Positions 29,997 to 58,100 of a stretch of DNA of 64,000 nucleotides are shown here, one piece after another. A program made the translations under genes and the position numbers. The stretch lies in assembly GCF_000317045.1 (NCBI RefSeq), contig NC_019703.1, positions 3,088,501 to 3,152,500 on the forward strand. The letters are read 5' to 3'. The notes under the pieces were generated by a model, which worked only from the letters and a program-made list of their open reading frames with translations, was not told where the DNA came from and did not search any database. Numbering within the stretch: the stretch's first letter is position 1; each line of letters opens with the position of its first letter. This stretch comes from Geitlerinema sp. PCC 7407 (GTDB taxonomy: Bacteria; Cyanobacteriota; Cyanobacteriia; PCC-7407).

Positions 29997-30563
29997 TCAG
30001 ACCCCCGTTAAGACATAGAAGCGCACATAGGCCACAGCGTACAGACCGTTCACCACGGCCAGCAGCACCCGCCCCCCAGGCGCAGCGCCCCGCCACAGCA
30101 GCACCATCGCCCCCAGGACGAGCAGCGCTTCTGCCAGGGCGACCCACTGGCCGTAGTGTCGGGGGTCCCAGTAGGAGAGCGGGCTAAAAAAGCGGTAGTC
30201 CGTCAGGGGCCAGAAATGCCGGTGGGCGTCCTCGCTGTGGACGGGCAGATCGAGCAGAGAGTGAAGCAAGAGGCTCACGCACAGGAGCTCGGCCCCGGCA
30301 TGATTTTGGCTGCGGGCGATCGCCCACCCCGCCAGCGCCAGGGGCATCGAATGGGCGATCGCCACCACGTCCTGCCAAAACGGCTGGAAATAAATTTCGG
30401 ACCAGATTTTGTTGGGCGGCTGGCCATACACCCAGCGCTGCAGACCATAAAAGGCAAAAATCGGCAGGTCTGGCAGCACCGAGCCCAGCAACACGGGCCA
30501 GGGGTGATTTTGGGCGCGATCGAGCAGCACCAGGTTCAAGATCGCGTGGCTGGGGGTGTTCAT
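29997..30563 (-). CDS. YdjM/DUF457-like membrane-bound hydrolase homologue
   Basis: A 188-residue protein with about four hydrophobic segments. The opening 'MNTPSHAILNLVLL' with its early histidine, the 'GSVLPDLPIFAFY' segment and 'LLLHSLLDLPVHSEDAHRHFWPL' reproduce the conserved His/Asp pattern of the membrane-bound metal-dependent hydrolase group (YdjM/DUF457). Activity of this group is not well established. Its start codon overlaps the stop of the upstream cyclase-domain gene as ATGA, so the two are translationally coupled. Confidence 0.75.
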   Translation of the reverse strand: MNTPSHAILNLVLLDRAQNHPWPVLLGSVLPDLPIFAFYGLQRWVYGQPPNKIWSEIYFQPFWQDVVAIAHSMPLALAGWAIARSQNHAGAELLCVSLLLHSLLDLPVHSEDAHRHFWPLTDYRFFSPLSYWDPRHYGQWVALAEALLVLGAMVLLWRGAAPGGRVLLAVVNGLYAVAYVRFYVLTGV

Positions 30564-31273
30564 GGCTGCGCGGCGGGCTGCGTAGGCTGCCAGCGATGCA
30601 CCGTCAGCTCGAGCCCCGCAATTTCCAGCTCGTCGCGCTTCCACAGCTGCGCTTGGGCAGGCCGGGGCTGCCAGCGCTGGTAGGCCGTCTCCGTCAGCAA
30701 AATTTCGTTTCGCAGGGCTAGGTCCTCGCCCAGCTTAGAGGCAAGGTTTACTTCCTCGCCGTAGACGTCTTCGCTGGCGATCGCCAGGGTTTCGCCATAG
30801 CCGATGCCGATGCTCGCGCCCTGGCCCTTGGCCACCAGCGTCCGCAGGATATCCGCCGCCGCCGCCACGGCCTGATCTACGTCGGGAAACACCGCCAGCA
30901 CGTTATCCGCGTCAGCTTTGAGCATCTGGCCGCCGTGGCGGCGGATCAAGGGCACCGCGACGCTGCGCTGCCGCTGGATCATCGCCAGGGTTGGCACAAT
31001 GCCCAGCTCCGCCGCCGTGCGCGAAAACCCCGCCATGTCGATCATCATCACGGCCTGAGTTTTGCCAAAAATCTGCCAGATTTCTTGATCGATGGCCTCT
31101 ACTGCTTCTAGATGGGCGTTGCGCCGCTCCAGCAGCTGCTCTAGGGTCTCCGCCGTTGGGGGCGGCTCCGCAGCGAGCAGGGGGAGCGCTGGGCCGCCAG
31201 ACACAGAAGCGGCGATCGCCCCACCCATCAACATCCCCAACACGGCGCGGTGATTCAACACAGATTGCTCCAT
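30560..31273 (-). CDS. Class III nucleotidyl cyclase-domain protein with signal peptide
   Basis: A 237-residue protein. Residues 1-35 look like a secretion signal: a short polar start, 'AVLGMLMGGAIAASVSGGPA', then 'LPLLAAEPPP'. Residues of about 72-220 are a class III adenylate/guanylate cyclase catalytic domain. 'MMIDMAGFSR' gives the first metal-binding Asp, 'KADADNVLAVFPD' the second, and 'IGIGYGE' and 'VYGEEVNLASKLGED' the transition-state region with its Asn. Both metal aspartates are present, so activity is possible. An exported cyclase would lack ATP, which makes the N-terminus puzzling. It is the first gene of a two-gene coupled unit with the YdjM-like gene. Confidence 0.8.
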   Translation of the reverse strand: MEQSVLNHRAVLGMLMGGAIAASVSGGPALPLLAAEPPPTAETLEQLLERRNAHLEAVEAIDQEIWQIFGKTQAVMMIDMAGFSRTAAELGIVPTLAMIQRQRSVAVPLIRRHGGQMLKADADNVLAVFPDVDQAVAAAADILRTLVAKGQGASIGIGYGETLAIASEDVYGEEVNLASKLGEDLALRNEILLTETAYQRWQPRPAQAQLWKRDELEIAGLELTVHRWQPTQPAAQP

Positions 31274-31331: not shown

Positions 31332-31649
31332 CTACAGGACGCTTTGCAGTCGCGAGATTAGCTGCTCTGCCTGCATCACCCCCTCAAGGCGATCCACCGG
31401 CTGTCCTTGCTTGAACACGACCAAGGTCGGCAGCGCCTGGATACCATAGCGAGAGGCTAGCTGGGGATAGCGATCGGTGTCAATCTTCACCACCTTGAGG
31501 CGGCCGCTCAGGCGGTGCTGCACCTGCTCCAAAATCGGGGCCATCATCTGGCATGGCCCGCACCACGCGGCATAAAAATCCACCAGCAGCGGCACCTCCG
31601 ACTCCGCCAGCAAATCCTGAAAGCTCGTAAATTGCTTTTTGATCGCCAT
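31332..31649 (-). CDS. Thioredoxin, y-type
   Basis: A 105-residue dithiol-disulphide oxidoreductase with the active site WCGPC in 'LLVDFYAAWCGPCQMMAPIL', followed by 'VVKIDTDRYPQLASRYGIQALPTLVVFKQG', given as a landmark, with the cis-proline. The opening 'MAIKKQFTSFQDLLAES' and the FYAxWCGPCQMMAP context resemble the plant and cyanobacterial y-type, which serves peroxiredoxins, more than m- or x-types. The start at 31649 has a GGAGG site. It lies 58 bases upstream of the cyclase-domain gene on the same strand. Confidence 0.93.
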   Translation of the reverse strand: MAIKKQFTSFQDLLAESEVPLLVDFYAAWCGPCQMMAPILEQVQHRLSGRLKVVKIDTDRYPQLASRYGIQALPTLVVFKQGQPVDRLEGVMQAEQLISRLQSVL

Positions 31650-31816: not shown

Positions 31817-32581
31817 ATGGAAGCCTTGCCAGAAAAGCTGCAACGGTTACGGGGACAGGTCGCGATTGTCACGGGGGGTTCACGGGGGATTGGCCGAGCC
31901 ACGGCGATCGCCCTCGCAGCAGAAGGCGCCCACATCGTGGTCAACTACGCCAGCTCCAGCACCGCCGCTGACGAAGTCGTCGCCGAAGTCCAGGGCATGG
32001 GCGTCGAGGCGATCGCCGTCCAGGCGGACGTGTCCAGCGCGGAGCAAGTGGACGCCCTGGTCGAAGCAGCCATGAGCCGCTGGGGCCACGTTGACGTCTT
32101 GGTCAACAACGCGGGCATCACTCGGGACACCCTGCTGCTGCGCATGAAGCCCGAGGATTGGCAAGCCGTGATCAATCTGAACCTGACCGGCGTTTTCCTC
32201 TGCACCCGCGCCGTCAGCAAAATCATGCTCAAGCAGCGCTCCGGCCGCATCGTGAATATCACCTCTGTCGCAGGCCAGATGGGCAATCCCGGCCAAGCCA
32301 ACTACAGCGCCGCTAAGGCGGGCGTGATTGGCTTCACCAAAACCGTGGCCAAGGAACTGGCCAGTCGCGGGATCACCGTGAACGCGGTCGCGCCCGGCTT
32401 CATCGCCACCGACATGACCCACAGTCTGGACGCCGAGGGCATTCTCAAGTTCATTCCCCTGGGACGCTACGGTCAGCCCGAGGAAGTGGCCGGCCTGATT
32501 CGCTTCCTGGCCGCCGATCCGGCAGCGGCCTACATCACCGGCCAAGTCATGAACGTCGATGGCGGCATGGTAATGGCGTAG
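31817..32581 (+). CDS. fabG: 3-oxoacyl-[acyl-carrier-protein] reductase
   Basis: NADPH-dependent reductase of the fatty-acid elongation cycle. The 254-residue short-chain dehydrogenase has 'VTGGSRGIGRATAIAL' (cofactor), 'NNAGITRDTLLLRM', the catalytic Ser in 'ITSVAGQMGNPGQ', and Tyr and Lys in 'NYSAAKAG'. 'GFIATDMT' and the C-terminal 'YITGQVMNVDGGMVM' are typical of FabG. An AAGGAAG site precedes the ATG. A terminator follows 70 bases after the stop. Confidence 0.96.
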   Translation: MEALPEKLQRLRGQVAIVTGGSRGIGRATAIALAAEGAHIVVNYASSSTAADEVVAEVQGMGVEAIAVQADVSSAEQVDALVEAAMSRWGHVDVLVNNAGITRDTLLLRMKPEDWQAVINLNLTGVFLCTRAVSKIMLKQRSGRIVNITSVAGQMGNPGQANYSAAKAGVIGFTKTVAKELASRGITVNAVAPGFIATDMTHSLDAEGILKFIPLGRYGQPEEVAGLIRFLAADPAAAYITGQVMNVDGGMVMA

Positions 32582-32736: not shown

Positions 32737-33300
32737 CTAGCGCGAGAGCGATCGCGCGTAGTCAATCTCATCGACGGCAAACAGCTCGGGAGATGGCCCC
32801 TGGAGCTGGGCGATCGCCCGCCACTCTGCCGCAACCGCCTGGGGCACCCGGATCTCCAGGGCCGTCCCGTCGGTCAGGGGCACCCGGAGCTGAAATCGCT
32901 CCGAGGGCAGCTGGTCTAGGAGGGGCAGTAGGTCATACTGCCCCACGCTGGGGGCCGGGGCATCCTGCTGAAACAGGTCGGGCGATCGCAGGACTGCCCC
33001 TGTGGTGCTCTCGATCTCGAGGGGCTGGGGATGGGCGATCGCCACCGCGCCCGGAAAGCCCACCAGACGCAGGCCCAGCTCTGCGGGCGTCGGTTCGCCC
33101 CGCCGAAACAGCACCACCTGCCACGATCGCCCCTCGCGATCGCGCAGGGTGTTCCAGGACTTGTAGAGCAGGTGGTCCGGCGCCTCCTGGGCCAGGCGCA
33201 GCTCAGCGTGTCCAGCAGGGGCGATCGCCAGCCCACCCAGCCAAAGAACGAGGCCCAGAAACCAGGTCATACCAATGCTTTGCCAACGCCGAAGGCCCAT
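32737..33300 (-). CDS. DUF3122 lipoprotein-less exported protein
   Basis: A 187-residue predicted periplasmic protein. The start at 33300 is set by a GGGAGGTG site. The signal peptide is 'WFLGLVLWLGGLAIAPAGHA'. The mature part contains 'DHLLYKSWNTLRDREGRSWQVVLFRR' (landmark) and 'LRLVGFPGAVAIAHPQPL', which match the DUF3122 family found in cyanobacteria. No catalytic motif is evident and the function is unknown. It lies 35 bases downstream of mtnP on the same strand, so it is probably its operon partner. Confidence 0.8.
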   Translation of the reverse strand: MGLRRWQSIGMTWFLGLVLWLGGLAIAPAGHAELRLAQEAPDHLLYKSWNTLRDREGRSWQVVLFRRGEPTPAELGLRLVGFPGAVAIAHPQPLEIESTTGAVLRSPDLFQQDAPAPSVGQYDLLPLLDQLPSERFQLRVPLTDGTALEIRVPQAVAAEWRAIAQLQGPSPELFAVDEIDYARSLSR

Positions 33301-33335
33301 CGCCACACCTCCCAAAACAAGGGGTTAACCGAGCA

Positions 33336-55108: not shown

Positions 55109-58100
55109 TTACCAGGGGTTCCCGATCAGGGTGAAACCGGCCCAGTAGTAAGGGTGAGACAGCACGCGATCGCTCACCAAGTCGGCACTCTCTGGCGGCA
55201 GCTCGACCGCTGGCAAGAACTCCAACCCTTGCAGCTTGCCGTCTTCAAGGGTGATTTGCCCCTGGGCCATGGCCAGCTGAGCCCTGCGCAGGGCTTCTGC
55301 TTTGATGGGGGCTGTCCGCAGATGGCCGTAGAACTCTGTCATCAGGCCCGCTGTTGCCGCATCGTTGACAAACCACAGACTGGCGATCGCGCTTTTGACC
55401 CCGGCCTTCACCGCAAAGCCCGCAAAGCCGAGCTCTGCTTCTTCGTTCCCCAGAGCCGTTCGGCAGGCGCTGAGCACCAGCAGCTCTACCGGCGGATTCG
55501 CCAGCCCCAGGGTGCGCAGCTGGTCTAGCTTGAGGCGGCTGTTCCAAAACTGCACGTAGGAGTTGGCCAGCGGCCCAGGCTCAAAGTCCGCATGGGTTGC
55601 CAGGTGAATGATGCCGTAGGGCCGCTCGGTGCGCAGGGCCTTGAGGCGATCGATGGTGAAGGACTCATTGAGCAGCGCCCGTCCTTGCCAGAGCTGCTCG
55701 ATAGCCGCCAGTTCCGCCGGCACCGCTGGCAGAGGCGGCTGCTCTTGGGTGCTCTCGGACACGCCCATGCCGAGGACCTGGGTATCGCGAATGTCACGAT
55801 AGCGGGTATCGGTCAGGGAGAGGCTGGGCATCATCCCAACGCTGAATTCTTCCACCAAGAACTGCTGACCGTTGTGGAGCGCCGCCATGGGGGTCGATCG
55901 CAAGCCGGGCTCCATGAGGAACACCAGATTGTTGATTCGGCGCTGCTCGAGCCTCAGGAGCACCGGCTCAATGATCCATTCATGGAGCTGCTGGGCCGGC
56001 AGCAGGTAGTCATCGGAGCTGGTGGAATCGGGGCTGGCAACGGCGGCCCGCAGATCGGCGGCGATCGCCATCACCCGCGATCGCGTCGCCTCTGGGATCC
56101 GCTGGAAGATCGGCTCTCCCTCCGCCGTCACCACCAACACCTCCAGCTGATCGCTGTCCTGGGGCTCAAACTCCGAAGTCGCCTCCGAAGACAAAGCCTG
56201 GGCGATCGCGCCAAACTGCCACTCCATTTGGCCTGCGCGGTTGGCGCTGCCGCCCCCACTGCCAAAGGCTTTTTCTGGATCTAGGGCCGTTGCTTGGCCG
56301 GGGGCGCCAGTTCTGGCCAGCACTTGGCCCTCGGGCAAAAAGCTGAGATAGACCAACGCAGGCCGCGCGCCCGTATTGTCCTCGATGTCGCGCAAGATTT
56401 CCCGTGCCTCGTCCAGCGTCACCGGGGGCGTCTCGATCGGGATGCCCAGATGGTCGGCAAACTCATTGGTCAGACGGCTTTCACGAGAGGCGATCGCCGT
56501 ATCAACCTCCGCAACCGGAACCCTTGTCGCCACATTAATGGGCGATCGCACCGGTTCCTGAGGCGGTCTAGGTCTACGGACCTCAGGCTCGGGAGACGGG
56601 GTTGGAGTTGGCTCAGGAGACGGAGTTGGGGTTGGTTCAGGGGTTGGCTCAGGAGATGGAGTTGGGGTTGGTTCAGGGGTTGGCTCAGGAGATGGGGTTG
56701 GCGGTGGTGGTGGTGGTGGTGGTGGTGGCGGTGGCGGTGGTGGCGGTGGCGGTGGCGGTGGCGGTGTTATCACCACATTCACTGAAATCTGGATAGGCGC
56801 CGATAGGGAAACGCGATCGGTAGCCCGCAGCGTAAAGAGCGGCAGCGTCCCCGTGACCCCCGGCGGCGCTTGGTATTCCACCACATCCGTTGGACTCAGC
56901 CGCGTTATCCCCGGCGAAATCGAGCTGCCATTGACCCGCACGATTACCCCCGGAGCCACCGAGTCAATAATGTAGGACTCACCCGCCACCGTCGGCAGAT
57001 CTTCAGGATTTGCGTCTCCCGGCGACAAGCCTAGAGCCGATGCGGAGAACGTAAAAACGCTGCCAGCCTCCGCATCTCCCACCGTAGGATTCGCCGCCGA
57101 AAGCGTTGGAGCCGTATTGCGATAGGTAATGCGCACCCCATCCACATTGGGGTCCCCCAGATCCGAATCCGTGTTGTTCGGAATCGGGGTTCCCGGAGCC
57201 GGAAACGTCTGCCCTGTGATCAGCACCCCAGTTCCTGGTGCAGTCGATCGGCTGTCGATCGAGCCCGCCGTACCATTACTCGTCGCATTCCCGACAATAA
57301 AGCGCGAATCGTCCACGCCCGTATTCGGCCCACCGTTGTGGCTGATTTTGACAAAGCCTCCTTGGTCACGGGCCGCCGTCAAAATCGTCTCTCCGGTAAT
57401 CAGAGTCCCCGTTCCGCGCACCACTCCCTCAGCGGTGATGCTGACTGGCCCGCCGCTGGCAACCGAATCCAAATCGTTTATGCGGCCCTGGGTGTTGATA
57501 CTTTCAAACAAGACATCTCCAGGGTTTCCAGGGAGCACCGATAGGGTCACAGATCCCCCCGATACCTGGGGTACCACGCTAGAGGCAACCGCAGTTGTGT
57601 CGATCGCCCCCGTCTCAATCGGGCCTCGGGAGACGATATTGACGGGTCCAGCAACATAGGGGGCAGAGACAAACCCAAAGCTGTTCACTCCCGTATTCAA
57701 AGCGCCAGTCTTGACCCCAGCCCCCTGAATCACAACCTCCCCGCCTCGCACCACAGAACTCGCCGAAGGATTGGTCGCCGTAGCCGTAATGTTGCCAACC
57801 TGCACGGTCTCCGATGCATTGATGTCAACGCGGCCCGCTTCACCCAGGCCAGGCAAGCCCACATAGCTACTGCTGGTGTTGATATTGCCTGCAACGATTC
57901 GCCCCCCACGGGCTTCGAGGATCACAGGACCGCCATACACTTCTGCTGTAAATTCAGAGCCCGGATCAGAGTCAATATTGCTAGAGGTATCAATATCCCC
58001 CACCTGGATATTGCCAGCAGAGAGAGTTCCGGGTGTCGAAAAAATCGTTCCTCCCAAAGGTGGCGAATTGGGGGGCAGGGTAAATACGCCGGGACCTGGA

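Follow-up and report, generated by a model that had tools for sequence, protein, structure and literature searches.

In this study we describe a protein of the cyanobacterium Geitlerinema sp. PCC 7407 in which a stand-alone class III nucleotidyl cyclase-type domain follows a signal-like N-terminus. Its gene lies in the window, by which we mean the whole 64,000-nucleotide stretch of contig NC_019703.1 that was analysed (Table 1). The accepted substrate of class III cyclases is cytosolic ATP, and ATP is scarce outside the cell interior. The stand-alone cyclase-type domain that looks exported is, in our judgement, real and uncommon; its export and its function are putative. Among the papers listed by literature searches, none was on an exported stand-alone class III cyclase, and a search on nucleotides within the thylakoid lumen yielded nothing of use. 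The recurrence of an export-like N-terminus together with retained metal- and base-binding residues would mean either that nucleotides are processed in the periplasm or thylakoid lumen, or that the fold has a use not yet recognised. The original prediction had placed a class III cyclase domain behind a signal-like N-terminus, and the reading frame, a confident structural model and an N-terminus that stands above its controls bear it out.

Table 1. The cyclase-type gene, its parts and its neighbours (window coordinates)
Feature	Position	Strand	Remarks
188-aa hydrophobic protein (P0002), weakly YdjM-like via homologues	29997..30563	-	overlaps the cyclase stop by ATGA
237-aa protein gene, signal-like N-terminus and stand-alone class III cyclase-type domain	30560..31273	-	ATG start
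Residues 67-232, cyclase fold: D79, K119, D123, D169, N176, K180, G182-E183-D184	30578..31075	-	alignment, model
Residues 41-69, two helices ahead of the cyclase fold	31067..31153	-	model and alignment
Residues 1-35, hydrophobic signal-like segment	31169..31273	-	hydrophobicity, pattern controls, codon score, pLDDT
GTG codon 24	31202..31204	-	last ATG/GTG/TTG ahead of the domain
Thioredoxin gene	31332..31649	-	58 nt upstream of the cyclase-type gene, same strand
fabG-like gene	31817..32581	+	divergent from thioredoxin

The domain and its nucleotide site

The AlphaFold2 model of the protein has a mean pLDDT of 89.1 and a pTM of 0.81, with residues 1-19 below 50. In a Foldseek search this predicted model comes closest to adenylyl cyclases of mycobacteria (E 1.2e-12), and comparison with Rv1900c (1ybu) gives a VIA-align Z of 22.7 and an rmsd of 1.8 over 160 residues. 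According to this model the protein carries the class III cyclase fold, at the level of the superfamily. The fold is common to Rv1900c and Ma1120 (4wp8/5d15), with Z of 22.0-22.7 at 18-24% identity, the signal-like N-terminus setting the window protein apart from both. CyaC (1wc1) and Cya2 (2w01) have the same fold at 15-20% identity; both are larger and carry their cyclase domain in the cytosol. The PF00211 score of the window protein is 19.1 bits against a curated cut-off of 21.9; in our set A1, 11 of 12 members match PF00211 at E values up to 1 (best 1.4e-7). The two helices ahead of the fold are found by alignment in short relatives as well. The gene is present as a single copy in the single-contig genome of 4,681,111 bases, which holds 12 further PF00211 domains above the cut-off, none of them close to the protein described here.

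Residue roles were assigned by HMM alignment to 3mr7, a cyclase domain of Silicibacter pomeroyi, and from established knowledge of class III cyclases. 3mr7 is the top PDB match to the family profile (E 6e-16), with Ma1120 and Rv1900c (LipJ) further down the same search of solved structures. The metal-binding Asp79 and Asp123 are present in all 117 distinct family sequences. The pair that specifies adenine, which the window protein has in full, is nearly as constant (Lys119 in 116 of 117, Asp169 in 110), and the transition-state Asn176 is found in 116 of 117, with one gap. The original prediction had rightly named the two metal-binding aspartates and the asparagine, and it had overlooked the position of the transition-state arginine. 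This position, 180, is a lysine in 115 of the 117 sequences, an arginine in L173 and a gap in one. Hence we do not file the window protein as a canonical class III adenylyl cyclase. 3mr7 itself has Arg where the family has Lys, and GD-G where the family has AD-N. Since the exchange of Arg for Lys is found throughout the family, it is unrelated to export.

Some other class III proteins depart from the canonical site in the opposite direction. According to PMC4215837, Ma1120 has a Lys/Asp base pair as in the window protein; its arginine, Arg168, is retained and its Asn is replaced by Ala, whereas the window protein keeps the Asn and has Lys for Arg. A second report, PMC4886424, describes nucleotide cyclase-like proteins from Actinobacteria, Bacteroidetes and Proteobacteria which, like the window family, diverge from the rest of class III and have no assigned role. 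As reported there they are without signal peptides, and the mycobacterial set has kept Arg and lost Asn, the reverse of the window family.

Leu-Gly-Glu-Asp follows position 180 in nearly all family sequences. The combination of this motif with the near-invariant Lys180 spans several phyla and may mark an undescribed cyclase-type family. A widespread family with a near-invariant lysine for the transition-state arginine would also be a natural test of how important this arginine is.

The N-terminal segment

Residues 1-35 comprise an n-region with Arg9, an h-region at about residues 10-22, and a putative cleavage site after Ala21 (by rule of thumb) or after Ala35 (between AA and EPPP, placed by eye). 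The best 15-residue Kyte-Doolittle mean is 1.97. Such a value is nothing unusual for an exported or membrane protein, as 53 of 293 gene N-termini of the genome attain it; among the non-coding controls, 3 of 190 open stretches lying upstream of genes do so, and 1.35% of 7110 alternative-frame windows. These controls, like those for the signal pattern and the codon score below, came from 21 stretches covering 464 kb of 4.68 Mb, with long ORFs rather than annotated genes taken as genes. A rule-of-thumb signal-peptide pattern with K/R fits the window protein; it also fits 37 of 293 genes, and among 2224 alternative-frame starts it fits 60. By the same kind of rule, the features of a Sec signal are present (Lys/Arg ahead of the hydrophobic core, small residues at -3/-1); the net charge of the n-region, 0 by script count, weighs against a signal. 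The N-terminus is thus signal-like beyond chance, yet not overwhelming by itself. A single Arg (N-H-R-A-V-L) and no twin Arg precedes the core, which rejects Tat export; the signal region contains no lipobox Cys of a lipoprotein signal, and by eye there is no second hydrophobic segment in the protein. A HIP1 octamer (GCGATCGC) at 31212-31219 encodes part of the h-region, so the hydrophobic Ala-Ile-Ala comes cheaply here.

It might be possible that the start has been mis-assigned and that translation from GTG24 or a non-standard codon yields a soluble product like most relatives. We consider this unlikely, though it is the rival that deserves most weight. Family members are short stand-alone proteins, most of which begin near the domain, and many soluble relatives start 5-9 residues ahead of it; GTG24 lies 19 ahead. 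The original prediction had regarded a start further downstream that drops the hydrophobic part as fatal to its proposal, and such a start exists in part: GTG24 is the sole alternative that removes most of the hydrophobic stretch, but it still leaves GGPALPLLAA. The window gene has no in-frame ATG, GTG or TTG between codon 24 and the domain, and by eye no evident Shine-Dalgarno-like run stands at the usual spacing ahead of GTG24, which speaks against its use.

Codons 2-24 have an in-frame codon score of 0.174, while the two remaining frames score -0.374 and -0.257; the in-frame score lies above that of 77% of 204 gene N-termini and is reached by 5.2% of 305 upstream open stretches. The score from synonymous codon choice alone does not favour the longer form, being an uninformative 0.022, with 9.8% of upstream stretches as high. 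The rarity of equal hydrophobicity in upstream open stretches, given above, further disfavours a mis-assigned start, as does a comparable extension in relatives. The lineage of the window has no close relative (its order consists of one genome), and the pN/pS evidence therefore comes from extensions of other family members. In the sisters L054 and L111, 25 sites differ in 45 extension codons, 17 of them at third positions, and pN/pS is 0.20 in the extension versus 0.21 in the domain. Both observations indicate that their extension is translated and constrained at the protein level. The extension of L008 and L045 is less constrained (pN/pS 0.53 vs 0.27 in the domain). On this indirect evidence, translation and export of the window protein's own extension are likely, short of proof.

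Extended members, topology and a possible role

Of 388 genomes of the class, 58 have an orthologue at E 1e-15 or better, the protein's own genome included. Among the 80 relatives kept of 146, the closest named ones are mostly cyanobacterial, in keeping with a cyanobacterial host, and Acidobacteria, Phenylobacterium, Patescibacteria and others are also present. A hydrophobic N-terminal extension is found in 8 of 117 sequences: the window protein, L008, L045, L054, L111, L061, L044 and L173. All eight fall inside one cyanobacterial group of 22 rows (SH-aLRT 94) in a tree of 103 rows that omits the 14 of 117 sequences scoring below 200 bits; none of the 81 other rows is extended. This count leaves out L156 (extension score 2.20 from a TTG) because an ATG marks the family start in L156 as in its sisters; counting it would give 1 of 81. 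In a more careful tree of 54 of the 103 rows, with 32 hand-picked from the 81 outside the group, the 22 rows form one side of a branch with support 80/92. Here the extended members require about five gains or losses, and at least five changes. L005 and L053, which group with the window protein in this tree, have no hydrophobic extension. A single origin of the extension without loss, that is one clade of extended members, is rejected (AU p 1.5e-5). Taken with the number of changes, this means that gain or loss of the extension was recurrent.

Seven of the eight extended members keep essentially the same active site as the soluble relatives. The divergent one, L173, has Ser124, Glu169 and Arg180; in L044, Glu174 is replaced by Gln and Ala122 by Val, two changes that also occur in non-extended members. 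Export is thus not tied to loss of the site. The original prediction had offered two readings: the N-terminus anchors the domain facing inward, or the domain is a periplasmic module without catalysis. The puzzle that it saw is real; the second reading, a simple dead module, finds no support in residue loss, and the first is disfavoured by charge, as set out below.

We tentatively favour, at a confidence slightly below even, a stand-alone cyclase-type domain with Lys for Arg, exported by an N-terminal Sec-type signal and with its nucleotide site intact. The reading frame, the predicted fold, the residues and the distribution of extensions are the observations that carry this proposal; from them we infer translation from the first ATG and export. 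The Sec-type signal would be cleaved or kept as a single N-in anchor, and the domain would be placed in the periplasm or the thylakoid lumen. There, like its fold relatives, it would pair head to tail as a homodimer, and each of the two sites would bind a nucleotide via a metal on Asp79/Asp123 and base contacts of Lys119/Asp169. The exported form would then be a nucleotide-binding, possibly slowly cyclising module. A broader claim goes further: a class III cyclase, active or ligand-binding, at work on the outer side of either the cytoplasmic or the thylakoid membrane, with repeated switching between cytosol and exoplasm in cyanobacteria by gain and loss of the signal while the site is kept. 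We hold this to be improbable; if true, it would mean cyclic nucleotide chemistry or nucleotide sensing outside the cytosol.

The inward-facing anchor would be an uncleaved N-out segment that leaves the domain on the cytosolic face, using ordinary ATP. The retention of the site in seven of eight extended members is most easily explained with ATP at hand, and L044, with a long hydrophobic run, fails the AxA-type cleavage rule. However, the charges point the other way. In the window protein Arg9 stands ahead of the hydrophobic segment and Glu-rich sequence follows it, which favours N-in with the domain out, and Lys/Arg lies ahead of or at the start of the run in six of eight extended members (L045 and L173 have none ahead of it). 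Hence an N-out anchor seems quite unlikely to us.

More improbable still is that the gene yields two products, a long form that is exported and a short one that stays in the cytosol, the latter initiated internally at the start position of the soluble relatives. Five of the eight extended members (L008, L045, L054, L111 and L061) keep an ATG there, which is compatible with two products, and a Met-Met is conserved between L054 and L111. Against this, an ATG at that position is missing from the window protein and from L044, and the internal ATG may be a leftover of the ancestral start.

Gene neighbourhood and relation to known systems

The neighbour downstream begins its ATG at 30563 and the TGA of the cyclase-type gene ends at 30560, so the ATGA overlap of the original prediction is confirmed. 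Its description of this neighbour as YdjM-like holds in part: the 188-residue protein itself gives no match to PF04307 (YdjM) and none to any other Pfam family above cut-off, and of six homologues scanned three have PF04307 matches that stay under the curated cut-off of 29 bits, the best at 25.3. Homologues of this neighbour occur in 29 of 96 cyanobacterial genomes, its own included. The proposed membrane signalling pair is rejected, as 10 other genomes contain both genes and in none of them are the two adjacent. Except for the window's own locus, a YdjM-like homologue lies near the cyclase-type gene in 0 of 115 loci (flanks of about 1.5-4 kb, shorter at contig ends, duplicates included).

Upstream, a thioredoxin gene on the same strand is found in 16 of 117 family loci, including six of the eight extended members, in which 21-95 nt separate the long start from thioredoxin. 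Cyanobacteria repeatedly show the order fabG/thioredoxin/cyclase; in some relatives two more genes follow, which by eye are folK-like and NUDIX-like. Overall the recurrent neighbours resemble housekeeping genes and offer no clue to function. The window protein's domain contains no Cys, which excludes redox control by the adjoining thioredoxin through a disulfide switch within the domain. The thioredoxin-cyclase pair recurs across cyanobacteria all the same.

The window protein shows a weak PADLOC profile similarity to the Pycsar cyclase PycC (8.4e-5), covering part of the domain; profile PDLC02367 is matched by 7 of 12 members, and the fold of 7r65 is reached with Z 19.3. The neighbour P0002 has no PADLOC match, so that a paired PycTIR/PycTM effector was not found. 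We rejected a filing as Pycsar on the neighbour's lack of a PADLOC match, on the pairing, which is not conserved, and on the housekeeping nature of the recurrent neighbours.

Three further observations concern the window as a whole. A DUF3122 protein (PF11320, 1.4e-44) at 32737-33315 on the reverse strand has a signal-like N-terminus and is a useful local comparison. Positions 56586-56766 hold a block of short tandem repeats with units of 6 to 36 bases, and HIP1 sites (GCGATCGC) number 161 in the window against 3 expected.
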